Under the pieces are notes generated by a model that saw only the letters and a program-made list of their open reading frames with translations, ran no database searches and was not told where the DNA came from. The translations under genes and the position numbers were made by a program. From NCBI GenBank assembly GCA_948567375.1, contig OX419760.1, forward strand, positions 11,780,001 to 11,844,000: a stretch of 64,000 bases of DNA. The letters run 5' to 3'. Positions 665-63,290 of this stretch are shown one piece after another. Numbering within the stretch: the stretch's first letter is position 1; each line of letters opens with the position of its first letter. The DNA is from Lunularia cruciata. Its lineage: Eukaryota > Streptophyta > Marchantiopsida > Lunulariales > Lunulariaceae.

Positions 665-1640
665 ATTGCTCATAATCCATGTCAGATAGTTTAGGTCCAT
701 AGCCTGACTTAACACCTAATGCCTAGATGCCTCTAACATGACAATAATACCAATATGGAAACTTGACCACTCTCTCTCTCTATCTCATTGCCATTATACT
801 CAACCAACAACTATAATTGTGAGTCCTAAACAAGTACAAGACCTTCCTTCAAATAAGCATAGGAGGCTAGGAAACTCATGAGTGTGGGAAAAGCAACTAT
901 TGGTTGTCCTACAAGGTTTTCCATTGCCATAGATGACCTATCAACCACTCTCATATTTAAGATTAACACCCAACATCCAAAACATTATTGATAATAAGGT
1001 GTGCTAGTTGTTGAATCATAATATAGGCACATTTTAAAACTTCTATAGGTAAGAATTTTGTCCATCAAAGATAAAGATGATGTGCAATGATATGTGTGAC
1101 AATATCAAAGATAAAGATCTATCTCTAGCCATACCCAACAACATTGTAGGGCTAATCCAAGTCTAGACTTGACATGTATTTGCCATCACCCATGTACAAG
1201 AGTCATCCATCAAAGTGATGTTCTCCAAAATGTATACTTGATAAACTACTTGAATGAACTTTGAGATGTTAAAGTATACATAACATCTCCCAAAACATAC
1301 TATAATAGGAATCTTGCAAACCTTATCCATGGGTAACACAAGTACCAATATGACTTTGAGATGGCCATCTAGAAATCACCAAATGAATAGTATCATATCT
1401 CTCTAGATCATATGTCCTCAACAAGGAAATGTTTGACATTAGGGTCTATTGGTAACCACTAATTGTTGACATTGGCAATAACTCAAGATACTTGTATGCC
1501 AAAATTTGCAACATGGTGCAAAGAGACTTGTCTAGCCGTCTCATCCTTGTCCATATACAAGTACCTCTAAACCCATATGCTTGCTTGCAATACTACAACT
1601 AATCTAATGCTTATCACACCAAATAAATCCAATAGGTGTA
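665..1640 (-). pseudogene. C5 cytosine-DNA methyltransferase-like domain embedded in the family D retrotransposon, decayed
   Basis: Minus-strand translation shows the C5-methyltransferase motifs in order, broken by stops and frameshifts. Motif I (SAM binding) reads LDLFGVIS at about 1611-1636, against the family form DLFxGxG. A following segment reads RYLYMDKDETARQVSLHHV at about 1510-1567. Motif IV reads WPSQ at about 1355-1378, where the catalytic PCQ has lost its Cys. Motif VI reads ENI within YILENITLMDD at about 1205-1235, against ENV. A C-terminal piece reads SQAMDLNYLTW at about 669-706, in the place of motif X. A live enzyme would methylate DNA cytosine at C5 using SAM. The region sits between the protease region and reverse transcriptase, so it was part of the element's pol and not a host gene hit by an insertion. 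This copy is dead. Confidence 0.75.
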
Positions 1641-2502: not shown

Positions 2503-3181
2503 TGTGAGCCGGCCTGTCTCTCACTCAGGATGAACCTCTGATGGCTATTATGGTAGCGCACCATGGACTAAGAAGGCAAGGAACCCCAACTCCATCATAC
2601 TCCTCCAAGGCTAACACTCCAAGACTCAAGACATTGCTCACTAGAGAACTCAATGAGAGAGAGATAGTTGCAAATGAAAGGATGATGAGTACCTCCTCAC
2701 TCCTTGTTTATATACTTGTGAAATAGTTACGTACCAAAGTTACTAATTACCGTAGTAACTCAAGTTACTAGACTAAAAGTCAAGTAAAGTCAAAAAGTAG
2801 AAAGGAATATCCATTCACATGGGCATATTCCCCTTATCTTGACCCAACCACTAAAGCAAGGATTCCTTCACATGGGCTATCCTTGGACTAAAGAAGAATC
2901 CAAAACAAAAAGGCTTGCGGGCCCAAGAGTTCTCAACTCTTTCCCCAAAGCCAAACACCTAGGAATAATACCAAGTCAACACACTAAAATCCAAAATAGT
3001 GGTGCTCATCTTTTCTACTTCCTCTAAAGTAAGGTCCCATCTATCTTAGCTATGACTAACTTTAGCTAACCATGACTAATATAGAACCATCCTTTATCTC
3101 TATATAAATAATATCTCTTAAGTACTTGTAATACCAAGCTAAATATCACAATACCACACACATGCACAAATGGGTGTTACA
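2503..3181 (-). repeat. 3' LTR of the young family-A element
   Basis: This 679-bp direct repeat reads as identical to 9627-10305 when compared line by line. On the minus strand it begins TGTAACACCC and ends CTCACA. The purine-rich CCGGGGGTAAA (3182-3192, minus sense) just before it is the likely polypurine tract. Small ORFs inside it recur in every LTR copy and are not genes. Confidence 0.95.
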
Positions 3182-3229
3182 TTTACCCCCGGACTAAGTT
3201 TTCACTTTGTCCTCAAAGTGAAGGTCTCT

Positions 3230-6200
3230 CTACCTTCTATGGTACATCTTCAACTTATCATGGTTAATCCTATCAAAGTGTCTTCCTCCCAACTCCTTGA
3301 GATCATAAGTGTAATTTCCCCACACCTTCTCTACTATGAAAGGTCCAAAGTACTTAGGCAAAAACTTCTTTTGTACTCTCTTGAATCGAATGGAATCAAA
3401 CAACATTACCCAATCACCTTCTTTGAAAGGCTCCAACTTCTTCTTGCCTTGCCTCTTGTCATAGCTCTCCTTTTGTTTCCTTTGGGCTTGCTCCACTCGA
3501 ACCATAGCAACTGCTCTTGCCTCTTCCAACTCCATGAGTTGATCCTTCCTTGACTTCCCTGCATCACTTCCTTGTGCTTTCTTCAATCTTCTATGAATGC
3601 TTTGGAAGGTAGGAAGATCAAAGTGAATAGGTAAGGTAGACTCAATACCATACACCAATTGGAATGGAGAATATCCAGTGGAAGTCTTCATGGTTGTCCT
3701 ATACTCCCACAAAACTGCATGAATCCTCTTGTCCCAATGATGTTTAGCCCCCTCCATTTCTGCATCTTTGGCCAACATCATGCACAAGGTCTGATTGGTT
3801 CTCTCTGCCAAGCCATTGGAATTTGGCTTATAGGATGTAGTTACTCTATGTGTGATAGAGAAATGTCGTAGCATGGCTGTAGTAATGCTTCCTGTAAACT
3901 CTCCTCCTCTATCAGAAACCAACTCCAAAGGGCATCCAAACCTAGTGATAATGCGTTCGTAAAGAAATCTACCCACTTCATCTTCATTCTTGTCCCTCAA
4001 TGGTCTAGCCTCAACCCACTTGGTAAGGTAATCAGTAACTACCACAATGTACCGATTGTTCCTTGGGGTTCTATTGAGAGGTCCTACAAAATCAATTCCC
4101 CACTTCTCAAAGGGTCCTAGCAATGGAATTGATCTAAGTGGTGGAGTGGATGTAGACTTTCTAGCAAAAGCTTGACAAATATGACAAGTTTTGCAATAAT
4201 CAAGACAATCCTTGAAAATCCCTCTCCAATGGTAACCTGCATCTAGAATCTTGAAAGCAGTCACCTTTCCTGCAAAGTGTCCTCCACATACTAAACCTTC
4301 ATGAAACTCCTTTATGAGTAGGATAGACTCTTCCTTACCCACTGCTCTTCGAAGTAGACCATCTGCTCCTTGGTGAAAAAGAATATCATCCACCATTGTG
4401 TAAGGTCTAGATCTTGCTGCAAGGGCCTTCCTCTCCCTAGCATGCATCCCTTCTGGATAGTTACCTCTTGTCACAAAATCCACAATCTCCTTGTACTCCA
4501 TTGGAACCTCTTGAGTGACTGAGATTGTCATGAGCTCCTCATCCGGGAAGGAATCATCTACTGGCTCATCTCCATCATGATCATAGGCTCTAGATAACAA
4601 ATCAGCATTTGCATGTTTCTTTCCTGGCCTATCCTCAATTGTGTAGTCATACTCAGACAAGAGAATCATCCACCTTGCTAGTCTCCCTTCAACATTAGGC
4701 TTGTTGAAGATGTACTTCAAAGCCTTGTGATCCGTGACAATTGTGGCTTTCCCTCCAATCAAGTAGTGTCTAAACTTCTTGAGACCAAAGATCACTGCCA
4801 ACCCTTCTCTCTCTGTGACAGAGTAGTTCTTCTCTGCTGAAACCATCTGCCTACTAGCATAAGCTATTGGATGATCATGCCCATCTTGGTCTAATTGACT
4901 AAGAGTGCATCCTATAGCTACATTAGAAGCATCAGTGTAGAGGATGAAAGGCTTACTCCAATCAGGTTTAGCAAGAATTGGAGCTACAACAAGGGATTGC
5001 TTGAGCTCCTCAAAAGCTTTGAGAGCCTCCTTGTCTTCCAAAATCACCATGTAATCTACACCCTTCTTCATGTAGATGGTCAATGCATAAGCCTTGTTGG
5101 AAAATGAGAAGATGAACCTCCTATAGTACCCAACCATTCCCAAGAATTGGCGTAACTTTGTCAAGCTTGAAGGGAATGGAAGGTCTGAGATTTTCCTCAC
5201 CTTCTCAGGATCAACTGCTATTCCATCCTTGGAGATGATGTGCCCCAAAAGTAGACCTTCTTCACATCCAAAAATGCACTTCTCTGGGTTGAGTGATGCA
5301 TTTGCCTCATCCAAGCATTGCAAGACTTTGATTAGGTGCTCAAAGTGCTCCTCCTTGCTCCCATAGACACAAAAGTCATCAATGAAATCTCTCACAAATT
5401 TCCCAATGAAAGGTTCAAATACCTTGTTCATGAACCATTGGAATGTGGCTGGAGCATTGCAAAGCCCAAAAGGCATGACCTTGAAAGCGTAAGTTCCCCA
5501 AGGTGTGGTGAATGTGGTGAGTTGTTGATGCTCTGGTGCAATCTTGATTTGGTTATATCCACTATAACCATCTCCAAAACTGTACCTCTCATGACCTGCA
5601 ACCTCCTCCAAGATCTCATCAATGAATGGCAATGGGTAGTAGTCCTTCTTGGTAACAGCATTGAGCTTCTTGTAATCCACACATACCCGAAGCTTGCCAT
5701 TCTTTTTCTTCACAATGACAATTGGAGACACCCATTCTGAATTCTCCACCTCAAAGATAAATCCAGCCTCCTTGAGCTTATCAATCTCCTCCTTCACAAC
5801 CAAAGATATTGGTGGGCTAATGCGACGTTGCTTTTGGCGGATTGGTCTTGCATGTGACTCCACCTCTATCTTGTGCTCCTCCAAGGTGACTTCCTTCAAA
5901 TCCTTGTAACTAAAAGCAAACACATGGATGAACTTGCGGAAAATCTCCTCAAATCTCACCTTCTCCTCCTTGGTAACATTTGGGCCATACTTGAGGGTAG
6001 ATAACCTTCTCTCTACCTCCTCAAGTGTCAATGGTGATTTATCTGGGTCCTTCAAAACCTCTGGCTTAGGTGCAAAATCCATAGCACACAAAGGATACAC
6101 ATCTGAATCAGATTCAGATTCATCCTCCTCCGTGGAAGTCTCCTCTTCCATGCTTGTGTCCACACCTGAAGCTCCTCCTTCAGAATCAGATTCCCAATAA

Positions 6201-8056
6201 TCAGAAGATGGGGTATCTGAATGTGAGGTGTTGGTGGTGTTAGTCACAGGAACAGTGACTCTATGGTTTGATGGCCCAATCCTTAAGTACCCTTTGTGCC
6301 ATCGATCAGTTGTGCGTGCTGCTCTCAACCATGGCCTCCCAAGAAGTAAGTCATAGCTTGAATCCTTCAAGACTTGGAAAGTCATGAGATTTTGAACTCC
6401 CATAACTGAAACTACCACCTTATCCATCACTCCTACTGGTCGAACTTGTTGCTTGTTTGCCATGCTCACCACAAATGTTGAAGCTCTTGAGGGTATCATA
6501 CCCAACTTCTTCATCAACCTTTCTGACATGGCATTCACTGCTGACCCTCCATCAACCAATGCATCCTTGATGTTGTGACCATTCACTCTCACATCAATCT
6601 TGGAGGCATATTCACAAGCTTCCCATGGTGCTGGCTTGGCATCCACCACCCCCATTGATATTGGAACTTTTGCCTTCTTCTTCTTCTTGCTCCTTGTAGA
6701 ACTCAAACCACCTCTAAGCTCCTTTCTCAAGGTAGGGTTCAAAGCAATTAATTGGCCCACTGTGATGTTAGCCTTGTGACTACCAACATCCTCCAACACA
6801 TTGTAGTTCCATTGTTGCTTGGAGATCAAGAAGTCCTCCATCCCCAACTTCTTCCTTGGAGTCTTTGTTGTTGATGGTGTTGAGGTGCGAGTGCTCCTAG
6901 TAGACATAGGAGTATCCTTGCTTGAAGTAAATCCTTGAGAAGAGTGAACATCCTCTACAAAACGAGCTCTCTTCTTCTCTTGTGCCAAAAGCTCCAAATT
7001 AGGACCCTTGGAGTTTGAGCACTCTCCCTTCTCATACTTGCTCTCAACCACATCTATGGATGCTATCCCCTTACCTTTGTTGGGATTAGGAGCCACTTGG
7101 GTTTCACTACCTCCCTCTTTCCCTCTATTGGCTCCCTCATAACCCCTTCCTCCATGGTAAGTGGAATTTGGGCAATTCCTTTGGATATGGCCTCTTCCCC
7201 CACAACCAAAACAATTTCTATCATTGAAATTGTTGGCTGGTTGGCCTCCTCTATATGGATGGTTTCCATAACTCCTAGGCCCTCTCCCTACATTCTGATC
7301 CACCTCTCTCTTCTCCCATAATTGCACCACATTGATCTTGAGATCCGCAAGTTGTTCTATGATGGTTTGGAGTGGATCTTTTGGTGGAGGTGCAAGAACT
7401 GGAGCAACTACTACTTGTGGTGCAACCCTTGTCACCAAAGTATCAGAAGTTCCACCATACTTGTAGCCTTGAGGAGGATGCACAACCTCCTTCACCACCA
7501 AATCACTTTCATCCCCTTCCAAACTCTCCTCCATACGAATTGCGATCTTGATAGCTTCAACCTTGGAAGAAGGTTTCTCATATCTCACCTTGCTTCTAAT
7601 TTGTGGTCTCAATCCTCCCACAAAATTCTTGGTGAGCATGGCCCCTATGCCAATCATTGTAGTCTCCACATCATCCCCACCCTTCCTCAACACTATGCGA
7701 AATCTGGACTCCAATTTTTCCACTCTTTCCACATAGACTCTCACTTTCTCTCCATCTCCTTGCTTGATAAATGTAACCTCACTCATCAATCTCTCATAAC
7801 TCTCATCAGGAAGAAAGTTCTCAATGAGTGCTGAAGTCAAAGTCTCCCAAGACTCCTCTTCCCCCTCTCTCCTCTCTCTCTTTTGGTATTCTGACTCATA
7901 CCATGTAAGTGCTGCATCCTCAAAGAAATCTGGTAATAATGAGGCCCACTCATTCTTCCTCCTCTCATTGTTTCCTATGCAAGCTCTCTTGAAGTCTCTC
8001 ACAAAGGCCTCCACATCTTCTCCATCCTTGCCAAAGAAAACCGGAAGTTTCCCCAT
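3230..8056 (-). CDS. Gag-Pol polyprotein of family A (gag, protease, RT, RNase H, integrase)
   Basis: This is a single 1608-aa frame from ATG 8056. Gag covers about residues 1-180. A CCHC zinc knuckle lies at C282, C285, H290, C295 (CX2CX4HX4C). The retropepsin has D502-G-G in place of DTG/DSG and ends at DLLLGRPWL (about 569-577). An acidic Ser/Glu linker spans about 612-660. RT covers about 740-960, with VCVDYKKLN (791-799), the first catalytic Asp at 829 and FIDD at 891-894 instead of YxDD. RNase H runs from TDAS (1041) to ADLLSR (1151-1156). Integrase has an HHCC region (H1252, H1260, C1291, C1294) and the D,D35E triad D1322, D1382, E1418. It ends at INHDKLKMYHRR with no chromodomain. Gag and pol are fused with no frameshift. 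The RT style and the Asp-type primer site place it outside the chromoviruses, nearest the Athila/Tat side; that placement is inference. All catalytic positions look intact. Confidence 0.95.
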   Translation of the reverse strand: MGKLPVFFGKDGEDVEAFVRDFKRACIGNNERRKNEWASLLPDFFEDAALTWYESEYQKRERREGEEESWETLTSALIENFLPDESYERLMSEVTFIKQGDGEKVRVYVERVEKLESRFRIVLRKGGDDVETTMIGIGAMLTKNFVGGLRPQIRSKVRYEKPSSKVEAIKIAIRMEESLEGDESDLVVKEVVHPPQGYKYGGTSDTLVTRVAPQVVVAPVLAPPPKDPLQTIIEQLADLKINVVQLWEKREVDQNVGRGPRSYGNHPYRGGQPANNFNDRNCFGCGGRGHIQRNCPNSTYHGGRGYEGANRGKEGGSETQVAPNPNKGKGIASIDVVESKYEKGECSNSKGPNLELLAQEKKRARFVEDVHSSQGFTSSKDTPMSTRSTRTSTPSTTKTPRKKLGMEDFLISKQQWNYNVLEDVGSHKANITVGQLIALNPTLRKELRGGLSSTRSKKKKKAKVPISMGVVDAKPAPWEACEYASKIDVRVNGHNIKDALVDGGSAVNAMSERLMKKLGMIPSRASTFVVSMANKQQVRPVGVMDKVVVSVMGVQNLMTFQVLKDSSYDLLLGRPWLRAARTTDRWHKGYLRIGPSNHRVTVPVTNTTNTSHSDTPSSDYWESDSEGGASGVDTSMEEETSTEEDESESDSDVYPLCAMDFAPKPEVLKDPDKSPLTLEEVERRLSTLKYGPNVTKEEKVRFEEIFRKFIHVFAFSYKDLKEVTLEEHKIEVESHARPIRQKQRRISPPISLVVKEEIDKLKEAGFIFEVENSEWVSPIVIVKKKNGKLRVCVDYKKLNAVTKKDYYPLPFIDEILEEVAGHERYSFGDGYSGYNQIKIAPEHQQLTTFTTPWGTYAFKVMPFGLCNAPATFQWFMNKVFEPFIGKFVRDFIDDFCVYGSKEEHFEHLIKVLQCLDEANASLNPEKCIFGCEEGLLLGHIISKDGIAVDPEKVRKISDLPFPSSLTKLRQFLGMVGYYRRFIFSFSNKAYALTIYMKKGVDYMVILEDKEALKAFEELKQSLVVAPILAKPDWSKPFILYTDASNVAIGCTLSQLDQDGHDHPIAYASRQMVSAEKNYSVTEREGLAVIFGLKKFRHYLIGGKATIVTDHKALKYIFNKPNVEGRLARWMILLSEYDYTIEDRPGKKHANADLLSRAYDHDGDEPVDDSFPDEELMTISVTQEVPMEYKEIVDFVTRGNYPEGMHARERKALAARSRPYTMVDDILFHQGADGLLRRAVGKEESILLIKEFHEGLVCGGHFAGKVTAFKILDAGYHWRGIFKDCLDYCKTCHICQAFARKSTSTPPLRSIPLLGPFEKWGIDFVGPLNRTPRNNRYIVVVTDYLTKWVEARPLRDKNEDEVGRFLYERIITRFGCPLELVSDRGGEFTGSITTAMLRHFSITHRVTTSYKPNSNGLAERTNQTLCMMLAKDAEMEGAKHHWDKRIHAVLWEYRTTMKTSTGYSPFQLVYGIESTLPIHFDLPTFQSIHRRLKKAQGSDAGKSRKDQLMELEEARAVAMVRVEQAQRKQKESYDKRQGKKKLEPFKEGDWVMLFDSIRFKRVQKKFLPKYFGPFIVEKVWGNYTYDLKELGGRHFDRINHDKLKMYHRR

Positions 8057-8292
8057 CTTAACCCCTCACTATTTTTCTTTTCTCTCAATTTTTTTTTTCC
8101 TCTTTTCTTTTCTCTCACTCTATTACTAATAGAGTATATACATGACTAACACCATCTGAGAATAATCCACTCTAGGGAACACAAAAGGTTCAGGTTGCTC
8201 CAAGATTTCTATAGCAACATCAAATCCTAGAGTGCATATTAATCTAACTCTCATGGATAGTTTATCCATAAGTTGAAAGATTATCTCCATCA

Positions 8293-8766
8293 CTAATCTT
8301 GAGAACTAGCTGATGAAGGTGGTAGTATTTCTGTAGCTGTACTAAGACTCTCTCCAAGATCCTTCACCAAAGTTTCCAAAAGTGCTTTTACTCCACTACA
8401 CTCATGTCCTTTTGGAAGTCCTTCAACTCCACAAACCTCACACAACTCCTTGGTCTTAGATCTTCTCCCTCCCAATCTTGGTGAAGAAGGTCCAACATGC
8501 AAACCCAAGTCAAGTAAGCCTCTCCTTTCCCTCAATCTCTTGCTCTCAAAGGTCAATGGACATGAACTTGCCTTATGTCCCTTCTCTCCACATAGAAAGC
8601 ACTTAGACTCACTCTTTCCTCCAAGTGGTGTAGGTTTTTGGATCCTCTCAACACTCTCTTCAAATTCTATTGTAAACTCTCTTTTCCTCAAATCCACCCC
8701 TACAATCACCTCAAACCCTTGGGGAACCTTGCATAATCTCAATTTCCACTCTTGATGACTCTCCAT
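8293..8766 (-). CDS. Leader ORF of family A: small zinc-knuckle protein of unknown role
   Basis: This is a 157-aa frame between the 5' LTR and gag-pol, in the same orientation. I start it at ATG 8766; the open frame extends eight codons further up only to a GTG. A CCHC knuckle (CFLCGEKGHKASSC, residues about 56-69, CX2CX4HX4C) is followed by a second Cys/His cluster (CEVC...GHEC, residues about 109-123) and a Ser/Leu-rich tail. It ends 236 bases before the gag-pol ATG. The relative at 57715-58183 keeps the same frame, knuckle and second cluster with only a few disabling changes, which argues it was under protein-level constraint. It could be an RNA chaperone or an accessory nucleic-acid-binding factor; the sequence does not say which. 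Expression would need a spliced or bicistronic transcript. Confidence 0.7.
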   Translation of the reverse strand: MESHQEWKLRLCKVPQGFEVIVGVDLRKREFTIEFEESVERIQKPTPLGGKSESKCFLCGEKGHKASSCPLTFESKRLRERRGLLDLGLHVGPSSPRLGGRRSKTKELCEVCGVEGLPKGHECSGVKALLETLVKDLGESLSTATEILPPSSASSQD

Positions 8767-9414
8767 GTTCCCCAAGATGAATCTAAACACTCAAACATGC
8801 TTTTTGTTGATCTCAAACTTCTCATGCATGAGATCTCCACTCTGCAGAATTGACCCTTCCTCACAATGTCACTCAAATCTCCCAACTAATATGTCACAGT
8901 CCTCTGAAATTTTCCACACTTGATCACAACTCTAGGGCGTCCCTCCCTGCAAAATTTTAGATCTTTTCATCGAGCCATTTGGCCTAGACACCTTTCTATT
9001 CAGCACCCATATTTCAGATTTGGTCTGAAAACCACCCCCCTCACTTCAAAAACTCATAACACACTGCGCAAAAATGATCTCTCTCTAATTTTTGTGGCAC
9101 CAGGTAGGATCCAATGCACTGAATTTTCTTGGAAATTTTCAGGACAATTCACTAAAAATTGAAGAAATGGCAGACTCTGTACAATTTTCCAGAGAGCATG
9201 CAGTTGCGGGAGCACTTTACCCTATCAACTTTCAAAAATTCTAGCCCAGTGCGCATAGAAGCTCTCTCAATAATTTCAAGTGTGCTAATTGAAAGATAAC
9301 CCAAGCTATCATGTGTAGAAATCTCAAGTCCAGATCTCAAACTTGAGATTTTGCCCAAAATCACCTTAATCCCCAAAATCTGCAATCCACCTCACACAAT
9401 CTCTCCAATTCCTC

Positions 9415-9585
9415 TCATGTGTACAAGATGTACAAAATCACCTCAAAGACATCATAATGAACTACAGGGTATACAAATGGATCTTGGTTCTCTAACATAA
9501 GTTCAGCCCTCTCCTCTCCTAATGTTCTCTCCAAGTGAGCTCTCATAGCCTCCTTCTGCCTAATGTAGAATTGGACGCGGAACAT
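9415..9585 (-). CDS. Short leader ORF (56 aa) just downstream of the primer binding site of family A
   Basis: The frame opens at ATG 9585, about 40 bases inside the LTR, and starts MFRVQFYIRQKEAM. The open frame itself runs back through the primer binding site into the LTR, but only to a GTG. The decayed element at 56171-63979 keeps the same frame with few replacements. No known domain is recognised. It may be an upstream ORF in the leader or a chance frame in conserved leader RNA; conservation in one relative does not settle this. Confidence 0.35.
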   Translation of the reverse strand: MFRVQFYIRQKEAMRAHLERTLGEERAELMLENQDPFVYPVVHYDVFEVILYILYT

Positions 9586-9604
9586 TATCTTGCCTTCTAG
9601 AGAG

Positions 9605-9622
9605 GTCCCGGCAACGGAACCA
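9605..9622 (-). promoter_or_regulatory. Primer binding site of family A, tRNA-Asp-like
   Basis: On the minus strand, TGGTTCCGTTGCCGGGAC lies four bases after the 5' LTR end. The core CCGTTGCCGGG matches the complement of the 3' end of plant tRNA-Asp, the primer type used by Athila/Tat elements. The two or three bases after TGG differ from the usual TGGCGCC. Confidence 0.75.
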
Positions 9623-9626
9623 AAAA

Positions 9627-10305
9627 TGTGAGCCGGCCTGTCTCTCACTCAGGATGAACCTCTGATGGCTATTATGGTAGCGCACCATGGACTAAGAAGG
9701 CAAGGAACCCCAACTCCATCATACTCCTCCAAGGCTAACACTCCAAGACTCAAGACATTGCTCACTAGAGAACTCAATGAGAGAGAGATAGTTGCAAATG
9801 AAAGGATGATGAGTACCTCCTCACTCCTTGTTTATATACTTGTGAAATAGTTACGTACCAAAGTTACTAATTACCGTAGTAACTCAAGTTACTAGACTAA
9901 AAGTCAAGTAAAGTCAAAAAGTAGAAAGGAATATCCATTCACATGGGCATATTCCCCTTATCTTGACCCAACCACTAAAGCAAGGATTCCTTCACATGGG
10001 CTATCCTTGGACTAAAGAAGAATCCAAAACAAAAAGGCTTGCGGGCCCAAGAGTTCTCAACTCTTTCCCCAAAGCCAAACACCTAGGAATAATACCAAGT
10101 CAACACACTAAAATCCAAAATAGTGGTGCTCATCTTTTCTACTTCCTCTAAAGTAAGGTCCCATCTATCTTAGCTATGACTAACTTTAGCTAACCATGAC
10201 TAATATAGAACCATCCTTTATCTCTATATAAATAATATCTCTTAAGTACTTGTAATACCAAGCTAAATATCACAATACCACACACATGCACAAATGGGTG
10301 TTACA
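9627..10305 (-). repeat. 5' LTR of the young family-A element, with promoter
   Basis: This 679-bp copy reads as identical to 2503-3181. On the minus strand a TATA-like TTTATATAGAG lies at about 10222-10232 (the same site in the 3' LTR is near 3100-3109), so transcription would start near 10195. The LTR ends CTCACA at 9627. The flanking GATC at 10306-10309 is the target duplication. Confidence 0.93.
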
Positions 10306-10870
10306 GATCCACCATCAACCACCTCTCCTTTAGAAGCAAGAACCACACAATCATTACTCTCACAAACTAGAAAACCAACTAGAACATTGGATTTGGATGA
10401 TATCTTAATGTGAAGATCTCATTGGCTAAGAACAAAGAGGAGCTCATAGTCAATTGATCCGCCCCCAACATTAGGCTGAATAAAGTCTTAGTAGAAGTAG
10501 GTGGCTTATTGAGTCCATCCTACACTCCATCACCACCTACCATACCTATACTAGGACATCTAGGAACCATGGATGTTATATATAGTGCCTTAGAGAGTGT
10601 GAAAGATTGGAGAAGTTTGACCTATCTAACAACTTCTTCTCTCTATGGGTCCAACTCCATTGATGCTCCTCTAGGCTCAAGAGCACATATTTCATTCCTA
10701 GTTACTACAATACATTCATCCACTTGTGTTGATCCGCACATGAAATTATGGACATCTCTCTCACTAGCATAAGAGGTGGAAGCCTCAATATCTAAATCTA
10801 ATCTCCTTTGAGTTATAGCTATGTTAGCCAATCTTTGTTGCAACTACTCAATATGAGAAGCCGTAGTTAT
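10306..10870 (-). pseudogene. Family D region between gag and protease, decayed
   Basis: This minus-strand sequence continues from the D gag knuckle toward the insertion point of the family-A element. A 66-codon open stretch (10843-10643) encodes a Glu/Arg-rich piece (ITQRRLDLDIEAS, then CIVVTRNEIC) with no recognised domain. Near 10306-10400 a frame reads NVLVGFLVCESNDCVVL followed by EVVDGG, which could be the start of a retropepsin. Stops break it throughout. Its reading continues at 2502 after the family-A insertion. Confidence 0.45.
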
Positions 10871-10879
10871 ATCAAAAGT

Positions 10880-12372
10880 AAAGGTAGGTATTCTCCATTA
10901 ACCTATGGCTCCTCTACTTCTTGCCATAGCATTCTTACCACTTTGTAACTTTGGGTGTAAGTCAAAGCATTCGTCACTAGAATGACCAAATCTATGGCAA
11001 TGGTCACATTTTTTTAGGGTTGGTTGAGGTGCTTTTGAGGTTTTATGCCTACTACTTTGGATGCACTCTCTCTTGTGGTGAAGTCAACTACAAGTCTAAT
11101 AAGAAACACTACCATTCACTAATTATTGCTAACCAAAAAATTGAGTGTAATGGTCTATTTGCACTAGGTCCACCACTTGCTTCATAAGATTAGAGTTGTC
11201 CATTGTACCCTTAAAGATAGTTTGGAAATAGTTTTCAACAAGCAATTAACACGTCTTAGTTTCACCTCACTAACTACGTCATTGCTCCAACACGGTGTGG
11301 TGCACTTTGTTGCACTCCAGAAGAAGTAACAACTATGGATGAGGTCTTTCTACCAATTTTAGATATCACTACTCTGTTCTCCACCATGTTGAGCTTGATA
11401 TGCTTTGCCAAACCAAAGACCACCACCAAAGTTGGTGAGAGAGCTTGTAAAATTATAGCATCATGTACTGTATGTTTTAGCTCCCTATCAAATGTCCCAT
11501 ACCAAATTGGACAACTTGGGCCTCAATAACTGCCTAAGTAAAATTGATCAACCATCTCATGCAAGTGTGTGCCTTCTACAAGCTCCAACCTTCCACTAGA
11601 ACTCTTACAAGCTCTTTAGCTTGTTAGGCCACACTCCTTGGTAGTTCTCTTGCAAGCACTAGAAGAACTCCACCATGATTTTAAACCTTGATATTACACT
11701 ACCTCTTATAATGATACTTCCACTTGAAATAGTATCATCTCCAACTAGTGCACTTCCATTAGATACACCATCACTACTAGAGCTAGAACTCCTAAGTATT
11801 GCCAATCTATCTCCAAAAATCAATTTTGAAATGATGGAGATGTAGTTCAAAGACCAATATTTTCTCCAAAGCTTGATCTCTTCCAAGTTTGCTATCTTGA
11901 ACTTGTGGTAAGAATCCATAGGTGGACCCTACAAGTGTTGGAATAACCTCTTCCATGCCATGAAAGATATAAACAAAGTTGGGTTATGCATCTTCTATAG
12001 ATTACACAAAATATCATTATTGAATGAAATCATCCAACTCAATTGCACCCATTATACCAAAGTAGTACTTGGGCTTTTGGAGGCCATATAAATCTGGTCC
12101 ATATCCTGCAACATTAGCATGGATTCACACATGCACTCTCAATTAGATAAGCTCTCATGTCAAACTTCAAACCAAAATCAATCTCCTTCCTCACTAGGAC
12201 TTGAGATATTAGCTGATACCAAGTGCCACTCCATATACATCCGTTGCACATTGTAGTAAAATTTCCTCTAAAATCCTTAGAGAACTCCATGGAGACAATG
12301 TACTCCAAACTGCAACCATGACTACCAAGTGCCACAACTAAAAACCACCAACAATTGGGCATCACCCACTAA
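10880..12372 (-). pseudogene. Family D gag, decayed
   Basis: The minus strand parallels the gag at 54860-56170 piece by piece. Shared segments are KYWSLNYISI ... RLAI..SSSSS ... MVEFF (11919-11659), a block near 11335-11520 corresponding to the open block 55611-55853, and a CCHC knuckle CDHCHRFGHSSDEC at about 10960-11010. An upstream degenerate Cys cluster near 11050 matches the first knuckle of the right-hand copy. Many stops are present. The leader between the LTR end (12373) and gag is included. Confidence 0.65.
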
Positions 12373-24955: not shown

Positions 24956-27500
24956 TACCTTACCATTACAACACTCATCCTCATGGTTTGTAAATAACTA
25001 CTTCTGATCTCATTGGAGAGAAACATAGGTAGTTTGATTGGTAATTGTTCAAGCCTCACTACTAAGAGCACACTAGAGCACCAATGCTCAAATATCAAGG
25101 CACTTCATACAAATTTGGTGCAAATAAAAAATAAAGAATGGAGAGTAGCCCAATCACAAGAAGTCCAAATAATAACCCTACATCTCACAAATTCAATTGG
25201 TTTGAATTTCTTACCACTTGGCATTTTACATAATAGGATTGTCTATGTACTCTTACACTATCAAGATCACCAAGGATGGGATCAAATATCCTTTCATTGC
25301 CAAAGCTATATAGGTATAAATATGAGTACACCAATCTTTGGAACAACATATGGGAGTAAACCTATTAGCTAAGGCACAAATCTAAGAACCAATGATCTAG
25401 GCTGCACAAAAATCAACCGAAATCATCCTTTCTCACTAGGTTAACACACCAGTGAGAAATGGATGATTTTTCCAAAAGACCAAAAATCCTCTAAATTGGT
25501 ATCAATTGGGAAATTTTATCCCTTATTGCACACACTAGCGAGAGATGGGTGATTTTTCCAAAAGATTACCAAAAAATTCTCTAAATTGGCTAGCTTCATG
25601 TTAGCTTGTTAGCCCTTCTAGTCCTTTGTAGCCTCAAAACACCAAATTGAGCAAATTGAGGCCTTCTTTGTTGCCACTTCAAGACCTCCAAAACCCTCTC
25701 TAACTTGAGCCTAACTCACTTCAAGATCTCTTGAACACTTTCTAGATCTAATAGACTCTACCAAATCAAACCCTAAATTGAGCAACCTATAAATCAGATC
25801 AATCTCTGCCAAGACCTCCAAAACCTTCTCTAACTTAGGCCTAACTCACTTCAAAATCTCCTAAACACTCTTCAGATGTAGTTGACTCACCAAATCCAAC
25901 CTTAACTTGTACACCGTCCAAATCAGGTCAATCCTTTGTTGATCTAACAAACCTCTAAGTCATTTGCCAAATCTAGACTTCCATATCAAGCTACTTTCTC
26001 CAATTTGGAGTATGAAGAACTCTAAATTCTTAATTTAAGGGGATAGGTTCACAAATCTAACCCCAATTGTGCACTTGGGTCTAATTTGCAACACCAAATC
26101 ATCAATTGAACCTTCATTCTCAAATTGACTTCTCTTATAAAAAAAATGGGATACTCACTCCTCAAATTGATTTCAATTTCCCATTTGCAATACCCAGTTA
26201 CCAATTTGACCTTTCACTCTTAAATTGGCCTGTCCAATCAACAAAATTGGATATCCATTCCTTACATCAATCTCAATTTTGGAAAATTTGGGCAATAATT
26301 CTATACATAGTCTGCCCAACTATCAAATCTACAACCAACTCAATAGTGTTTCTATGCACAATTTATTCAATTAAAATCATAATTGAGTAATAGTGATCAA
26401 AGATACCAATGATTACACTAAACTTGGAGATACTACTAACGGCCCACAATTCTTGCACTTAATTTACCCATTGAGTTTTTCTATGTAACCAATGACTCTC
26501 AACTCAAATTATATCTAAAATTTGAACAATCAACACTCAATATATGCTACCAATAGGCCCTAAGCACATTTTCAAGTGTAATACTTTGAGGACAAGAGAA
26601 CTCTTCAAGAGAGAAAACACAATTTACACTTAATTCTCCAATGCTCCAAAGGAGCACCTTCGTTTTATTATATAACAAAGAGTATCCACTCAAAAGAAGC
26701 TCTACCCTTGGATTAGATACATGGATTGGTGACCTGTCAGCAAACTCCATCCTTGGATTAGTTGTTTGGATGGTTGACATGTCAGTCCTTGTCCTATCTA
26801 GTTGGTCAAATGGGTTTGACCAAAGGGAATCTTTAGGGAATCTTCTTGTAGGAAGCTCAAAATCGCATGAGTAAGATACCATTGGAAAGCTCTCAATGAG
26901 ACAAATCATGGGAGGAGAAATCAAACCTTTTGTCCTTGAGGGGGGAATATTTCTATTTTTGAGGCCTAATTCATCCATTAAGGCCTCCAAAAATGGCTTG
27001 AGAGTTTTCAAGCTATTTTTAGCTTTTGCCCTATTAGTAGATGTACTCTTTTGGTGATACCTTTGTCTGATCTACCTAGCCCATTGTACAAAACGTCTTT
27101 CTAGATGTTAAAAGCTAATTTTCACCTCTAGATAACATGTCTAGCAATACATGTATTACATCAAGCCACATCTACTCTAGGTAGGAGAATCAAGGTGATA
27201 CTTATTGGCCTTTGTCCACCACAATCAAGAGCTCAAAGGCTCAACATAGAAGAAGTGAGCTCTCTAGAGTTTTACCTTCAGGTATACTCCCTCTTGTGTG
27301 GCAAGAATCCAACCCTATCTAGTCCATCTAATAGTACATTTGATGGTGCAAACAATAACTAGAATGGTGTGATCAATAGACCTAATACTGTGTCTAGTTA
27401 CTATTAAGAAGTAATTGGATAACTACTAGAATAGTTACAATTATCAAGACTAACACTCTAGCATCATAGTAAACTAGCTTTGGTGCTACAAATGTCATAA
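24956..27500 (-). repeat. Family D 5' LTR, main part, with a nested solo LTR
   Basis: The minus-strand sequence matches LTRs at 31346-32951 and 53037-54708 over most of its length. Matches include the outer end (GACATTTGTAGC.CC.AAGCTAG) and the part near CAAACTACCTATGTTTCTCTC at about 24990-25040. It is cut on the left by the copia element. The inserted solo LTR at 26577-27160 accounts for part of its length. Confidence 0.75.
26577..27160 (-). repeat. Solo LTR of a chromovirus related to the 17442-24017 element
   Basis: This 584-bp copy has ends TGTAATAC...GTATTACA on the minus strand, as in the chromovirus LTR, and shares internal blocks such as CACCAAAAGAGTAC and CTACTAATAG. A perfect 5-bp duplication TCAAG flanks it (26572-26576 and 27161-27165). 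It is shorter than the 738-bp LTR, so it is a subfamily or has deletions. Confidence 0.87.
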
Positions 27501-31345: not shown

Positions 31346-32951
31346 TGTCATGACATTTGTAGCACTAAAGCTAGTTTGCTTGGATGCTAGAGTGATAGTC
31401 TTGGTGGTCTTAGTAGTTGCTAAGAGGCTACTTAATGCCAAAAAAATTGTGTTAGGGATATTGATCACACCATGGGACCCACCATCACTTGCACTGTTCA
31501 TATTGTTAGATGAACCATCAATGTCACTAGAGGGGTTGAGGATCCAAATCAATCAGAGGCGTATACCTTTGAAGTACAACTCTAAAGAGCTCACTTCTTT
31601 GATGTTGAGCTTTATACTTCTTGGTTATGGTAGATAGGGGCTGACAAGCATCATCTAGAGTTTCTTAGCTAGAGTGGGTGTGGCTTGATTGTAATTAGTG
31701 TCCATTGTTGACAGATTATTGAGTTGATGATTGAGTTTTGATCCGAGTTGAGTATAATTCAAGTGTGAAGTGAATCGATTACATGAGACAAGTGAAGTCA
31801 AGGAGAAAGTTGGGTCTAGAAACTGAGTGCATTGGTGGCATCTCCAAGCTTGGTAGGATTGTTGGTATCTATGATGATTGTTAATGGAATTCTCTTTTAG
31901 TGGTGTGGATCACGAAAAAAAAGCCTTACTAGATTTATTACAAATTTGACAATGGGGTAGATAGTGTGCAAAAGCACCACCCAAATTTCTCAAAATTGAA
32001 TCAATTTGATATAGTAGATGTTCAATTTGAGCACATAAAGGTGAAATCAAGGTCAATTTAATGCAAATTGAGCACAAAGTGCAAAATTGAAGGTAGATTT
32101 GAGAACCCATCTCCTTGAATTAGGGATTAGGAGATCCTTATCCATTTGACTTGGCTCAATTTGACAATTAGAGATGGATTTAGAGGTCGACCAACTATAG
32201 TAGAGATCTATAAAATTGGCAAAGGTTTTCTATATTCAAAGGTTGAGTTAGTGGAGGTTGTCTAAAGTTAGAGGTTGCCCAAATTTATTGGATGTTAATT
32301 AGATTTGGAGAGGGTTTGAATTGGCAAGAAGAAAAGTATCATTTTGCAAAATTTTGGTGTTTAAGGCTTCAAGGCATAAGGCTAGAAGGGCAAACATACT
32401 AATGTGAAGCTAGTTAGTTTAGTCAAGTTTTTGGTAGTTTTCAATAGTTGTGTGAAAAAATCTACCCATCCTTTAGGAATGTGTACAAATAAGATCTAAA
32501 CCCAAATCTCTAGTTCCATAGTAAACTAGTCCACATAACTTTTTGTCTTAGTGATTAGTAGATTGATACTTATACTCATGTAGCTTTGGTTAGGAGAGGA
32601 AGTTTGATCCTATATTTGGTGATTTTGGTAGGATAAGAGTAGATAAACATTCTTTATATATCAAATGCCAAATGGTAGCAAAGTAAATCTACTTTTAATT
32701 TTTCAAATAGAGAGCTATTGTTTTTTTTTTCTTGTGATTGGACCTCCTTCATTCTCTATTTCTTGTTTGTGTGAGATGCTTGTGTTTTAGTGTGTTCTTG
32801 GTAGTGAGATTGGAGTGATGATTAGTTAGACAACGTATGTTTCTCTTTGGTAAGGTAGGAAGTGATGGCTATAGACCGCAAGAATGCGTGTTGTGATGGT
32901 AGGTTATAGGTTGCTCTTCCCCCTAGTATTGTTATCATAATAAGAGTTACA
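31346..32951 (+). repeat. Family D LTR, second copy
   Basis: It begins TGTCATGACATTTGTAGC, where the first ten bases are a perfect palindrome, and ends GAGTTACA; it is about 1.6 kb. It matches 53037-54708 over long blocks (for example around GAGCTCACTTCTTTGA and the CATCATCTAGA segment). Only 31 bases follow before the chromovirus at 32983. Past that element the sequence is non-LTR retrotransposon, so this LTR is solo or truncated. Confidence 0.75.
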
Positions 32952-32982
32952 TTAGTGGGTGGTTCTTGGTGACGGAACTTAG

Positions 32983-51360: not shown

Positions 51361-51830
51361 CTAGAGAGCAATGGACACATACTGTCTAAAGTATGTTGTA
51401 AAGTATGAGAGTGAGAGTGATTCTCCTTGACATCTAATATGATAAGCTCTCGTGCATTCTCTAACAAATGTGTCAAATGCCGTGTCCATCACTCCATATA
51501 ACTCCAAGGCTAGAGGAACAAAGAGGTGACCTTGTTGCATACCCCTATACTTAGGAGACCTTGCATGTTGCTGCTCCACTCGCCGCCCATCCAAGGGGAT
51601 GAGTAATCAATCCCTCCAAAACTGCATCATGTGTAGGGTTTGTAACCACAACATCCACCACTGTCAGTTGATCATCATAGACCAAGTATAAGTCTGCTCT
51701 TACACATGTCATTTGCAAAGCATACAAATGCTCCCTCCAAGCAAGTTATCCACTCACTTGTGCCCTAGCAGACACTACATCCCTGATGGCATCATGTGTA
51801 GCTATCCTCTGTCCTCCAAAAAGATACTAT
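51361..51830 (-). pseudogene. Restriction-like endonuclease tail of a non-LTR retrotransposon, decayed
   Basis: Minus-strand frames read GGQRIATHDAIRDVV, then RADLYLVYDDQLTVVDVVV, then KYRGMQQGHLFVPLALELYG and YFRQYVSIAL. The order DL..DD..VVDVVV..K.KY matches the PD-(D/E)XK core of site-specific non-LTR elements. It is the same domain as 39250-39493. It begins abruptly at the GGAGGACAGAGG junction near 51825, so it is 5' truncated. Confidence 0.6.
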
Positions 51831-52171
51831 GGGTATTACAAGGGTACTTTTAGAGGTATTCTGGTAAGTTTCCTAATTATCAAACACAAAGAGCACTAAA
51901 ATATACTCAAAACACTTCCTTTGATTATATCTAATTACATGAAATGAAGAATGGATTACTTGCTAGTATGAGACACTATATCCCTTATGGCATCATGGGT
52001 AGTTATCCTCTGTCCTCCAAAAGACACTATGGGTATTACAAGGGTACTTTTAGAGGTATTTTGGTAAGTTTCCTAATTATCAAACACAAAGAGCACTAAA
52101 ATATACTCAAAACACTTCCTTTCATTATATCTAATTACATGAAATGAAGAATGGATTACTTGCTAGTATGC
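51771..52171. repeat. 200-bp tandem duplication
   Basis: Unit 1 (51771-51970) and unit 2 (51971-52171) share almost every base, for example TATGGGTATTACAAGGGTAC and ATGGATTACTTGCTAGTATG. Differences include one extra A in unit 1 and a few substitutions. The duplication includes the right inverted end of the possible TIR element and a short piece of the non-LTR fragment. Confidence 0.85.
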
Positions 52172-53036: not shown

Positions 53037-54708
53037 TGTCATGCCATTTGTAGCGTCGCACCTTGATTGCTCGGACTCTAGAGTAGTAGTGTTGGTAGTC
53101 AAGAGTATTTTGGTAGTTACTCATAGACTACTTGTTGACGGTCAGCTTTTTTGTTTGGGATATTGACTATATAGTTGGGTTTATTGTCACTTAGCACTAT
53201 TCGCACCGTTGGGTGTGCCGTCAATGGGACCATTAGGGTTTGAGACCTAGCTCAAGTCCAAGGGGTATACTTTCAAAGTGTAGCTCTAGAGAGCTCACTT
53301 CTTTGACATTGAGCCTTCAAGTTCCTGGCTATGGTGGACAGAGGCTGGCAAGCATCATCTAGATTCTCTTAGCTAGAGTGGGTGTGGTTTGGCTGTAATC
53401 AATGCCGAGTTGTTGGTAGATTATTGAGTGATATATCAAGTACTGATCTGATTGAGTTTGATTCAAGTTGTGTATACAAACTGATTACACCAAAGAAGTG
53501 AGGTTAGGGGGAAATTGGATGCAGGGACTGAAGGTGTTGGTGGTATCTCCAAGCCTTGCTGATCATTGGTAGCTCAATCGTGGTCTTAAGTTTACTTGAG
53601 AGTGATTTTGTGTGCAAAAGGTCTTTGAATTGATGTAAATTTGGTAGTGAGGTAGATGATGTACAAAAATTTTGAGCAAAGAGAAGCAATTTTAAAGCAA
53701 TAGTTGTGATTTTGAGCTTAGGAGTGAAAGTAGGACCAATTTGGTGCAAGTTGAGCTCAAAAAAGTGAAATTGAAGGTGGAGTTGGGAACCTATCCCCAT
53801 GAATTTGTAATTTGGAGAACCCATCATTTCAATTTGGCTTGAATGCAGAGTTAGTGGAGGATTTGGCAATCAGCCAAATTTAGGGATTTATATTAGATTT
53901 TACATCAGATTTTTGATGGATTTTACATCAAATTTGGCCAAATTTGGAGGATTTTTGCCAGATTTAGAAAGGGTTGAAGTGGCAGATTTTGGCTTGAAAT
54001 GGAGGAGCTTGGCCAGATTTGGAAAGGGTTCAAAGTGGCAAGAAGAAAGGATGCACTTGGCATTTAGAGGCTTTGAGGCATGGTGTTGTGGGCTATAAGA
54101 GGCTACAAAGGCCTAGAAGGGCCAGCAAGTCAACTCGTTGGCGTGATGCTAGCTAGTTTAGAGTAGATTTTTGTCATTGTTTGGCAAAATCTACCCACCC
54201 TGCTAGATTGTGCACAATAGAGTTTGACCCCTAGATCTTTGGTTCTTAGATTGGTGCCCTAGCCAACTGGTCCACCCTCACTTGTTGTCATAGTGATTGT
54301 TCCACTATTATCTATACACTTGTAGCTTTGGCTAGGAGAGATAGTTTGATCCCATCCTTGGTGATCTTGGTAGCTTAGGAAATAGATAACTTATATTATA
54401 TCATATGCCAAATGGTGGCAAAGTAAGTCTAATGTTGATTTATGAGATGGAAGTTTTTTTTAAAGATTTTTTTTGATTGGACCACCTCCATTCTTTGCTT
54501 CTTGTTTGTGCACCATGTTTGTATGAGATGCCCTAACTTTATAGCGTTGGTTCTCTAGTGTGCTCTTGGTAGTGAGTTAGTCAGACTACCTATGTTTCTC
54601 TCTAGTGAGGCAAAAAGTGATGACTTGCAGACTATGAGAGTGCGTGTTGTGATGGTAGGTTATAGGTTGCCTTTTCCCTCTAGTGTATTTATCGTGGTTA
54701 GAGCTACA
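53037..54708 (+). repeat. Family D 5' LTR, third copy
   Basis: It begins TGTCATGCCATTTGTAGCG and ends GAGCTACA; about 1.67 kb. It matches 31346-32951 and the nested LTR at 24956-27500. It supplies the uninterrupted sequence for the copia insertion site (GATGGTAGGTTATAGG near 54653-54668). Confidence 0.78.
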
Positions 54709-56170
54709 TTATGGCTGATATTTGGTTGGTACGTTGGCACTTGGTGGTGTTGGCACTTGGTGGAGTACTTGTGGTGGTTATAGTTATGAGTTGCAGTTCC
54801 TGGTTACTTCGTCACGTTGGAGTTCTTTGAGGATTCTAGCGGAGATAGCATTGCAGTACACAATTGGTTTACCCAAAGGAGCGTTTGTTATCTAGAGTGT
54901 GCTCAAGGAGGAGATTGACTCTAAGTCAGATTTTTAACATAAGAGCTCATTTAGTTGAGAGTGCACTTGGTATGTCTGCACCATTGTTGTGGGACATGGA
55001 CAAGATTTATGGGGCCTCCAAGGGCCCCAAGCATTACTTTGGTAGAATGGGTACCATTGAGTTAGATGACTTCATCTAAGAGTTTGATAGTTGGTGTGAT
55101 CGGCAACAGATTATGGAACTTGACTTTGTTCACACCCTTCATGGCATGAAAAGGGTTATTTCAACACTTGGAGGGTTTGTTGATGGATGAACACCATGAG
55201 TTTAGAAGAGCTCACTAGAGGAGATTGAGCTATAGAGATAGTATTGGTCTCCAAACTATATCTCCATTACTTCAAGCTCAGTTTCTAGGGGTAGATTGGC
55301 AATACCCACAAGTTCTAGCTCTAGTAGCATTCATGGATCTCTTGAAGATGGTGCTATTATGAGTGGAGGTACTACTACATGAGGTGGTTTAGTGTCGGGG
55401 TTTAATCCCATGGTGGAGTTCTTCTAGTGTTTGAGGCAGAACTACCAAGGAGTGTGGATTGACAAACTAAGGAGCTTGCAAGAGCTCTAGTAGAAGGTTG
55501 GAAAGAGCCTACGTGAGGCATACACTTTCATGAGATGGCTGATCAATTTTACTCAAGGAGTTGTTGAGGCCCAAGCAGTCTAGTTTTGGTATGGGATAAT
55601 ATACAAGGAGTTGCAATGTAGAGTTCATGATGCTACATTGTTATATGCTACTTTGCCTACTTTGGCAATGGTCTTTGGTTTGGCTGAGCGTATTGAGCTC
55701 AACATGGTGGAGGAGAGAGTGGTGACATCTGGATTTGGAAGGGAGACCTCATCCACAATTGTTACTTCTTCCAAAGTGCACCATGTCATGTTGGTTTTCA
55801 AGGATAAGATGAACAATCCAAATCCTATGGAGCAAGTGGAAGACCTACTATAGCTAGACCCTTACTTTCACTTTTGGGTAAGCAGTAGCTAGTGAGTGGT
55901 GGTGTTGCTTGTTGGACTTGTGGTGGACCTCACCATAGGAGAGAGTGCTCTCAAGGCAGTGGACTTGATACCTCTAGTGCATCATAGCCAACATAAAGAT
56001 AGTGTGAGCATTGCCATAGATTTGTCACACTAGTGAGCAATGCTTTGACCTACACCCAAAGTTACAGAGTGGTAGACTTGTTATGGCAGGTGGTAGAGGA
56101 GCTCCAAGTCATGGAGGACAAGGTGGTAGAGGTGGTGGTAGAAGGTCCACACGTAGTAGGGGTGCAATAC
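54709..56170 (+). pseudogene. Family D leader and gag, third copy, decayed
   Basis: Gag frames are MDKIYGASKGPKHYFG (54864-55079), LRQNYQGVWI and LREAYTFMRWL (stops between), and an 80-codon open block ending VEDLL (55611-55853). Two knuckles follow: CWTCGGPHHRREC near 55909-55947 and CEHCHRF.. near 56008, the second shifted out of frame. The sequence then runs to the family-A insertion at 56171 and resumes at 63980. Confidence 0.7.
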
Positions 56171-56862
56171 TATACCACCCATTTGTGCATGTGTGTGGTA
56201 TTGTGATATTTAGCTTGGTATTACAAGTACTTGAGAGATATTAGTTATATAGAGATAAAGGATGGTCCTACATTAGTCATGATTAGCTAAAGTTAGTCAT
56301 AGCTAAGATAGAGGGGACCTTACTTTAGAGGAAGTGGAAAAGATGACCACCACTATTTTGGATTCTAGTGTGTTGACTTGGTATTATTCCTAGGTGTTTG
56401 ACTTTGAGGAAAGAGTTGAGAACTCTTGGGCCTGCAAGCCTTTTTGTTTTGGATTCTTCTCTAGTCTAAGGATAGCCCATGTGAATGAATCCTTGACTTA
56501 GTGGTTGGGTCAAGATAAGATCATAGGCTAGTGGAATATGCCTATGTGAATGGATATTCCTTTCTACTTTTTGACTTTATTTGATTTTTAGTCTAGTAAC
56601 TTGAGTTACTACGGTAATTAGTAACTTTGGTGCATAACTATTTCACAAGTATATAAACAAAAGGATGAGGAGGTACTCATCATCCTTTTATTTGTAACTA
56701 TCTCTGTCTCATTGAGTTCTCTAGTGAGCAATGTTTTGAGTCTTGGAGTGTTAGCCTTGGAGGAGTATGATGGAGTTGGGGTTCCTTGCCTTCTTAGTCC
56801 ATGGTACAGTACCATAATAGCCATTAGAGGTTCATCCTAAGTGAGAGACAAGTGGGCTCACA
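56171..56862 (+). repeat. 5' LTR of the decayed family-A element
   Basis: This 692-bp LTR pairs with 63291-63979 and ends GGCTCACA, followed by TTTT and the primer site TGGTTCC at 56867. Confidence 0.9.
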
Positions 56863-57714: not shown

Positions 57715-58183
57715 ATGGAGGGTCATCAAGAGTGGAAATTGAGACTATACAAAGTTCCCCAAGGGTTTGAGGTGATTTTAGGTGTGGATTTGAGGAAAAG
57801 AGAATTTACAATAGAATTTGAAGAGAGTGTTGAGAGGATCCAAAAACCTACACCACTTGGAAGAAAGAGTGAGTCTTAGTGCTTTCTTTGTGAAGAGGAG
57901 GGACATAATGCAAGTTCATGTCCATTGACCTTTGAAAGAATGAGATTGAGGGAAAGGAGAGGTTTACTTGACTTGGGTTTGCAGTGTTGGACCTTCTTCA
58001 CCAAGATTGTGAAGATCTAAGACAAAGGAGTTGTGTGAGGTTTGTGGAGTGGAAGGACTTCCAAAAGGACATGAGTGTAATGGAGTAATAGTGCTTTTGG
58101 AGACTTTGGTGAAGGATCTTGGAGAGAGTCTTAGTACAGCTACAGAAATACTACTACCTTCATCAGCTAGTTCTCAAGATTAG
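57715..58183 (+). pseudogene. Leader zinc-knuckle ORF of family A, broken copy
   Basis: It starts MEGHQEWKLRLYKVPQGFEV, parallel to the intact 8293-8766. An in-frame TAG (57877-57879) lies just before the knuckle CFLCEEEGHNASSC, which is otherwise intact. An insertion near 57985 shifts the frame. The second Cys cluster CEVCGVEGLPKGHEC is conserved. Conservation on both sides of the breaks supports a real protein ancestor. Confidence 0.65.
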
Positions 58184-63242: not shown

Positions 63243-63290
63243 AGAGACCTTCACTTTGAGGACAAAGTGAAAACTTAGTCCGGCGGTAAA

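Follow-up and report, generated by a model that had tools for sequence, protein, structure and literature searches.

How a cytosine methyltransferase comes to lie beside a reverse transcriptase (RT) is the question raised by a stretch of 64,000 nucleotides from the liverwort Lunularia cruciata (contig OX419760.1, positions 11,780,001–11,844,000; hereafter, the window), which forms part of a 565.8-Mb assembly in 74 contigs. An initial annotation, made from the letters alone, had placed a decayed methyltransferase-like domain of this locus inside a long terminal repeat (LTR) retrotransposon. Its sequence places the remnant in question, referred to here as copy 1, among the old and dead members of a bryophyte family of Ty3-type retrotransposons that carries a DNMT3-type methyltransferase. 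The identity and layout of the element, as reconstructed by alignment, are close to certain; the wider explanation—a bryophyte Ty3 family whose DNMT3-type enzyme ends the gag-protease frame—is, taken as a whole, highly probable, though the roles proposed below are less so.

The decayed methyltransferase domain

The Pfam methylase profile found no match in any single frame of copy 1, because the motif pieces are spread over three frames with stops, and none in a composite of the pieces joined by X or in three pieces of that composite; a phmmer comparison of the composite with the PDB returned a chance match only. Compared with 5.8 billion proteins, the X-joined composite gave 11 matches, the best with an E value of 1.6e-42 and 37% identity over 100% of the composite. 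When 123 family proteins were aligned to positions 1–2502 by tblastn, the best piece scored 98.2 bits, against a best of 32.3 bits in 100 dinucleotide shuffles. An unfiltered scan of the whole 64 kb in six frames with the family profile gave matches in the methyltransferase region only, on the minus strand (1511–963, E 1.4e-30; 954–766, E 1.8e-16; 1252–1121; and 745–668). Together, the composite search, the shuffles, and the profile scan exclude chance.

The motif pieces named in the initial annotation—LDLFGVIS, YLYMDKDETARQV, WPSQ, YILENI, and QAMDLN—were found in that order on the minus strand, with YLYMDKDETARQV immediately after LDLFGVIS (1632–1609); their numbers (I, IV, VI, and X; Table 1) follow the scheme for C5-methyltransferases. 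The copy had been called dead, and the domain indeed has 11 stops and six frame-changing gaps relative to a relative, with PCQ changed to PSQ. The domain also lies, as claimed, directly before a Ty3-type RT, which at 587–78 is 50% identical to open reading frame (ORF) 2 of an intact-frame relative and matches Pfam RVT_1 with an E value of 3.7e-6, under the cut-off of that profile.

ORF1 of the young copy E19 aligns across copy 1 in unbroken order (residues 11–695 at 12350–10305 and residues 716–1130 at 2457–1248) apart from a nested insert between the two parts, and thus, the domain is not flanked by two unrelated insertions. The DNA of copy E23 matches the window at 12302–10304; the CCHC region of the gag remnant, at ~11095–10817 on the minus strand, is matched by the Marchantia polymorpha protein P0010 (residues 87–193); and relative P0014, whose protease matches PF13650 below the cut-off, aligns at 2445–1625. 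Remnants of the RNase H, integrase, and PHD finger of copy 1 lie to the left of the window (stretch L029; residues 319–754 and 935–1026 of E23 ORF2). Since both ORF1 and ORF2 of young copies align through copy 1, the methyltransferase belongs to the element rather than lying next to it.

Copies and layout of the family

A search of the genome with profile PF00145 scored 123 of 2161 candidate places, all 123 over the cut-off and many with long open frames (the longest of 1428 codons). Thirty-six were examined, of which 32 belong to the methyltransferase-element family and four do not; these counts (123, 36, and 32) are lower bounds, and the sample is tilted towards well-preserved copies. The four places outside the family were named by reading their translations: L001 and L004 as host DNMT3-like, L002 as DRM-like, and L003 as another methyltransferase. 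The genome holds recent insertions much younger than copy 1, some with open frames; the DNA of the copies in the window is ~69–78% identical to that of young copies.

The profile check suggested with the initial annotation fails in copy 1 but succeeds in better-preserved copies, PF00145 being above its curated cut-off in all three ORF1 stretches taken from three genome copies, as well as in 13 of 18 relatives scanned. In alignments of relatives and genome copies, motifs I, IV (PCQ), VI (ENV), VIII, and X stand in order. Open domains, which the annotation had suggested looking for in the same genome, exist: in 7 of 34 copies, the methyltransferase has no stop, frame-changing gap, or large gap. 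PCQ is kept in 32 of the 34, the exceptions being the window copy and L031; all seven open copies keep PCQ and ENV, and six keep AHRLR of motif VIII.

The layout was determined from ten copies, each with 9 kb on either side, all of which share the order A1–ORF1–UAG–ORF2–B1-A2-B2. A is a direct repeat of ~450 bases at both ends, whereas B, of 108 bases, is found before (B1) and after (B2) the right-hand A. A1 and A2 are 89.9%–99.3% identical, and B1 and B2 92%–100%; the unit A2-B2 starts with TG and ends with CA, and a perfect 4-bp target duplication lies outside A1 and B2 in nine of the ten copies (copy 27 has none). The description as an LTR retrotransposon therefore stands in part: the Ty3 domains are present, but equal LTRs are not, the 5′ end having A only and the 3′ end B1-A2-B2 in every copy. 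Split direct repeats of the form A1 ... B1-A2-B2 are the general definition of DIRS elements. The termini here are of this type; the tyrosine recombinase and lack of duplications that go with it are not found, the element having a DDE integrase (PF00665) and the duplications just described. In copy 15 (L016), a third A-B unit, perhaps a solo repeat, lies past the 3′ end at ~5285–5841.

Whatever their frames, none of the ten copies falls below 1130 of the 1138 residues compared for ORF1 or below 1036 of the 1037 for ORF2, including the PHD finger. ORF1, unbroken for 1428 codons in one copy, encodes protease and methyltransferase after a gag with two CCHC-like knuckles; gag and protease were assigned by homology (the knuckles, the motif LDSGAQ, and relative P0065, which matches PF13650 over the cut-off). 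Its last codon is TAG at all 13 distinct loci compared (the window copy is not alignable there), which account for 14 rows because one locus appears twice, and at 12 of the 13, the next bases are CAGCCA; UAG-CAR-YYA is the leaky stop context of tobamoviruses. ORF2 starts in the same frame as ORF1 and encodes RT, RNase H, an H2C2 zinc finger, and the DDE integrase; a PHD finger forms its C terminus (PF00628; E 2e-10 and 7e-10 in the two copies scanned). RT, RNase H, and integrase were identified by Pfam, and their order is that of Ty3/Gypsy elements in all ten copies. Chromovirus-type Ty3 elements carry a chromodomain at the integrase end; the element here likewise has a chromatin reader fused to the integrase C terminus, but this is a PHD finger. 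The order gag, protease, methyltransferase, RT, which had been proposed from copy 1, is thus the same in better-preserved copies of the genome. Two corrections follow from these frames: the methyltransferase is in the gag-protease frame, with a stop before the RT, and a PHD finger is also encoded.

Relatives and enzyme type

The profile search found 594 proteins at E values up to 1e-5. Among the 120 matches listed, 13 carried an organism name, and all 13 were from bryophytes: Calypogeia fissa (4), M. polymorpha (4), M. paleacea (1), Riccia sorocarpa (1), Sphagnum troendelagicum (2), and S. jensenii (1). In several relatives, a single frame covers both protease and methyltransferase, as in P0065 with PF13650 and PF00145, and in P0057 (Riccia) and P0011 (Marchantia), the methyltransferase, by reading, runs on into Ty3-type sequence before and at the start of the RT.

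DNMT3 is the closest enzyme type by sequence and fold; the motifs are not permuted, and DNMT3 ranked far above DNMT2-type enzymes. A tree of 24 rows separates the 19 element domains, as one group (100/100), from the five others, namely one host DNMT3-like gene (L001), one host DRM-like gene (L002)—both on long branches—and three phage enzymes; P0015, P0047, and P0083 of the 20 relatives chosen, in which the pattern used did not locate the start, are omitted from this tree. The window copy, also on a long branch, is placed as sister to the genome's young family (98/94). The host genes (L001, L004, and L002) and the element domain are alike DNMT3-superfamily C5-methyltransferases, but the former, unlike the latter, are split into exons or circularly permuted, and the element domains group apart from them. 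Among 190 phage records with a match, the 20 listed are 25%–30% identical, and no relative was found in viral contigs (three queries) or prokaryote genomes (one query).

Known systems and origin

KnitGypsy-Dnmt3 of Klebsormidium nitens has a DNMT3 domain in a Ty3 element with DIRS-like repeats (de Mendoza et al. 2018, PMC5890265) and thus, by its published description, resembles the bryophyte element in its Ty3/Gypsy domains, its unrearranged DNMT3-type enzyme, and its termini. The two differ in that the methyltransferase of KnitGypsy-Dnmt3 is in the Pol frame (PMC5890265), whereas that of the bryophyte element is at the end of the gag-protease frame before the UAG; in the PHD finger, a term that the main text of PMC5890265, figures aside, does not contain; and in their hosts, an alga there and a land plant here, with at least 32 verified places. 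SymbioDIRS-Dnmt3 of Symbiodinium (PMC5890265) shares a DNMT3-type domain in a retrotransposon and the split repeats general to DIRS elements but, being of the DIRS type, has a tyrosine recombinase, in contrast to the DDE integrase and 4-bp target duplications found here. In yeast, the DIRS enzymes of Symbiodinium methylated CG, and the same study proposed self-methylation of cDNA (PMC5890265).

A 2025 DNMT survey refers to earlier cases in streptophytes and dinoflagellates (PMC12344493), a 2019 paper describes methylase-bearing transposons as absent from land plants such as tracheophytes (PMC6338049), and a Ty3 burst has been reported for the L. cruciata genome (PMC9985172). Among the papers listed in a search confined to the open-access literature (subscription papers lay outside it), no report of bryophyte cases was found; what looks new is that such an element occurs in a land plant, that it has young copies, that its methyltransferase ends ORF1 before a UAG, and that it has a PHD finger.

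A possible history, put forward tentatively, is that one Ty3 lineage took up DNMT3 before plants came on land, gained DIRS-like split ends together with a DDE integrase, and kept the enzyme in streptophyte algae, mosses, and liverworts. The liverwort form would also have the PHD finger; a single element would then combine an enzyme that writes DNA methylation and is produced at gag level with a module that reads histone marks, and it would use both to set the methylation of its own new copies. It is rather unlikely that the bryophyte element and KnitGypsy-Dnmt3 arose by independent captures of DNMT3, with no old streptophyte lineage behind them. Captures are recurrent, as in the long interspersed nuclear element (LINE) and DIRS elements of Symbiodinium and in Klebsormidium (PMC5890265), and the different frames that hold the two domains would suit separate origins; however, both domains are of DNMT3 type, and the rare mix of DIRS-like repeats with Ty3 domains is found in KnitGypsy-Dnmt3 as well as in all ten copies here.

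Proposed roles of the enzyme

Readthrough of the UAG is probable, given its codon context. With a leaky UAG, most ribosomes would stop after the methyltransferase, and the enzyme would be produced at levels like those of gag and enclosed in the particle, while a few would read past the UAG to give RT and integrase. The enclosed enzyme would then methylate the new DNA of the element, either during or following reverse transcription and before integration or shortly after it, and the PHD finger would steer the integrase to marked chromatin. On arrival, the methylated copy would resemble host heterochromatin and so might not be sensed as foreign, or it might limit its own expression after the jump. 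Self-methylation as the main role of the enzyme is suggested with reserve.

A somewhat weaker candidate is that the domain was kept for another use, be it RNA methylation, a structural function within the particle, or some action on the host, such as opening or closing chromatin elsewhere or defence against other DNA. RNA methylation was proposed for the LINE case (PMC5890265) and a defence role in another paper (PMC6338049), and the Klebsormidium domain, the only Ty3-borne relative with a published test, gave no methylation in yeast, a result that its authors called inconclusive (PMC5890265) and that also weighs against the self-methylation proposed here. A DNA-methylating role is nevertheless favoured by the catalytic motifs kept in the open copies (PCQ and ENV in seven of seven, AHRLR in six) and by the ranking of DNMT3 far above DNMT2-type enzymes.

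Selection and decay

Variants were counted in 30 of the 34 copies (all but the window copy, L031, L033, and L042). Singletons look neutral, with 120 nonsynonymous to 51 synonymous changes, or 0.92 of expected; the ratio falls to 44:33 (0.58 of expected) for variants in two or three copies and to 26:26 (0.48) for those in four or more (Fisher's test against singletons, p = 0.012). With C-to-T and G-to-A changes removed, it is 57:25 for single and 10:15 for shared variants (p = 0.0099). C-to-T and G-to-A changes make up 213 of 320 variants, with per-site frequencies of 0.68 at CG (54/80), 0.73 at CHG (98/134), and 0.17 at CHH (61/359), as would be expected were the copies methylated by the host. 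Per site, such decay is about equally common at CHG and CG but some four times less so at CHH, which suggests strong host CHG methylation of the elements.

Between species, the methyltransferase is better conserved than the protease in five of the seven relatives in which both were aligned, although some pieces are unaligned or short (the P0013 protease piece has 74 residues). Identities in Calypogeia P0013 are 72% for methyltransferase, 64% for protease, 53% for the linker, and 44% upstream, and in P0014, they are 73%, 64%, 47%, and 46%, respectively.

That the domain is a decaying passenger under no selection is very improbable. The neutral look of singletons and the loss of an open domain in 27 of the 34 copies sampled, through a stop, a frame-changing gap, or a large gap, would fit such a passenger, but shared variants are poor in amino-acid changes, and the domain is 53%–73% identical to five proteins of other sources over 271–330 residues. 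The reading of the piece as a host pseudogene or separate insertion beside an RT remnant, for which the insertion and stops that break the window copy alone could speak, is refuted by intact-frame copies, unless these are errors of assembly: ten other copies share the domain, its order, the terminal repeats, and mostly the target duplications, protease and methyltransferase share a single frame in relatives, and the host gene L001 falls outside the element group (100/100).

Several points weigh against the explanation of a selected enzyme that ends the gag-protease frame. The signal of selection is modest, and recurrent C-to-T decay can give the appearance of shared variants; in the two-or-three-copy class, 78 of 89 variants are of this kind. 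The domain is fully open in 7 of 34 copies only, though 32 of the 34 came from the best-scoring places, and the protease is slightly better conserved in Sphagnum P0038 (62% against 58% for the methyltransferase) and M. polymorpha P0092 (57% against 49%). No Pfam gag or protease profile matched in the two long ORF1 stretches scanned, and the PHD finger was seen in this genome only; among the proteins fetched, ORF2 had no close relative, the best matches being ~30% identical. The probable readthrough is judged from a codon context whose meaning comes from tobamoviruses.

Other features of the window

Copy 1 is interrupted by a Ty3 element (2503–10305) with a gag-pol frame of 1611 codons (~3230–8065) whose best named relative is from M. 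polymorpha (69% over 71%). Its 679-bp LTRs (2503–3181 and 9627–10305) are 100% identical, and hence, the insertion is recent; GATC repeats flank it at 2499–2502 and 10306–10309. Copy 2 of the methyltransferase element is better preserved, with an A repeat at 53037–53458 and gag at 54733–56169; its methyltransferase, to the right of the window (stretch L031, 968–2061), is decayed and 82% identical. One Ty3 family is therefore nested in both window copies, on opposite strands, the two inserts being 93% identical.

Further fragments of the A repeat and 5′ region, 68%–82% identical to a young copy, lie at 31558–31870, 32304–32963, 27155–27269, and 24963–25401, and two adjoining 200-bp units at 51770–52170 are 96% identical. 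An Rfam match to U4 small nuclear RNA (11118–11299, minus strand), just over the gathering score and inside the gag remnant, is probably due to chance, as it is absent from three stretches of better copies.

Table 1. Positions of the parts of copy 1 and of other elements in the window
Feature	Positions	Strand	Basis
ORF1 5′ part of copy 1 (gag)	10305–12350	−	tblastn of copy E19 ORF1, residues 11–695
Protease and linker of copy 1 ORF1	1625–2457	−	tblastn of E19 ORF1, residues 716–995
Decayed DNMT3-like C5-cytosine methyltransferase domain, copy 1	653–1638	−	Alignments of relatives, family profile
Motif I, LDLFGVIS	1609–1632	−	Alignment of relatives
Motif IV, WPSQ (WPCQ in relatives)	1356–1367	−	Alignment of relatives
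Motif VI, YILENI	1217–1234	−	Alignment of relatives
Motif X, QAMDLN	689–706	−	Alignment of relatives
Reverse transcriptase, start of copy 1 ORF2	78–587	−	tblastn of E23 ORF2, residues 118–278
Young Ty3 element nested in copy 1	2503–10305	−	LTR pair, gag-pol frame
Copy 2 of the methyltransferase element, better preserved	53037–56170	+	DNA 78.6% identical to copy E23
Second nested insertion, splitting copy 2	56170–63988	+	93% identical to 2503–10305

Significance

DNA methylation is one of the chief weapons of the host against mobile elements, and an element with a de novo methyltransferase of its own thus reverses the usual picture of the arms race: a land-plant mobile element appears to have owned the tool that is normally used to silence such elements. 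The published cases considered here are from algae (PMC5890265), and the element described here extends them to liverworts and Sphagnum. Its split ends, combined with a DDE integrase, bear on how split-repeat elements replicate. As recent, partly open copies exist and the bearers include the model Marchantia, the purpose of the enzyme can be addressed in plants that can be grown and methylome-sequenced and, in the case of Marchantia, which bears relatives of the element, also edited.
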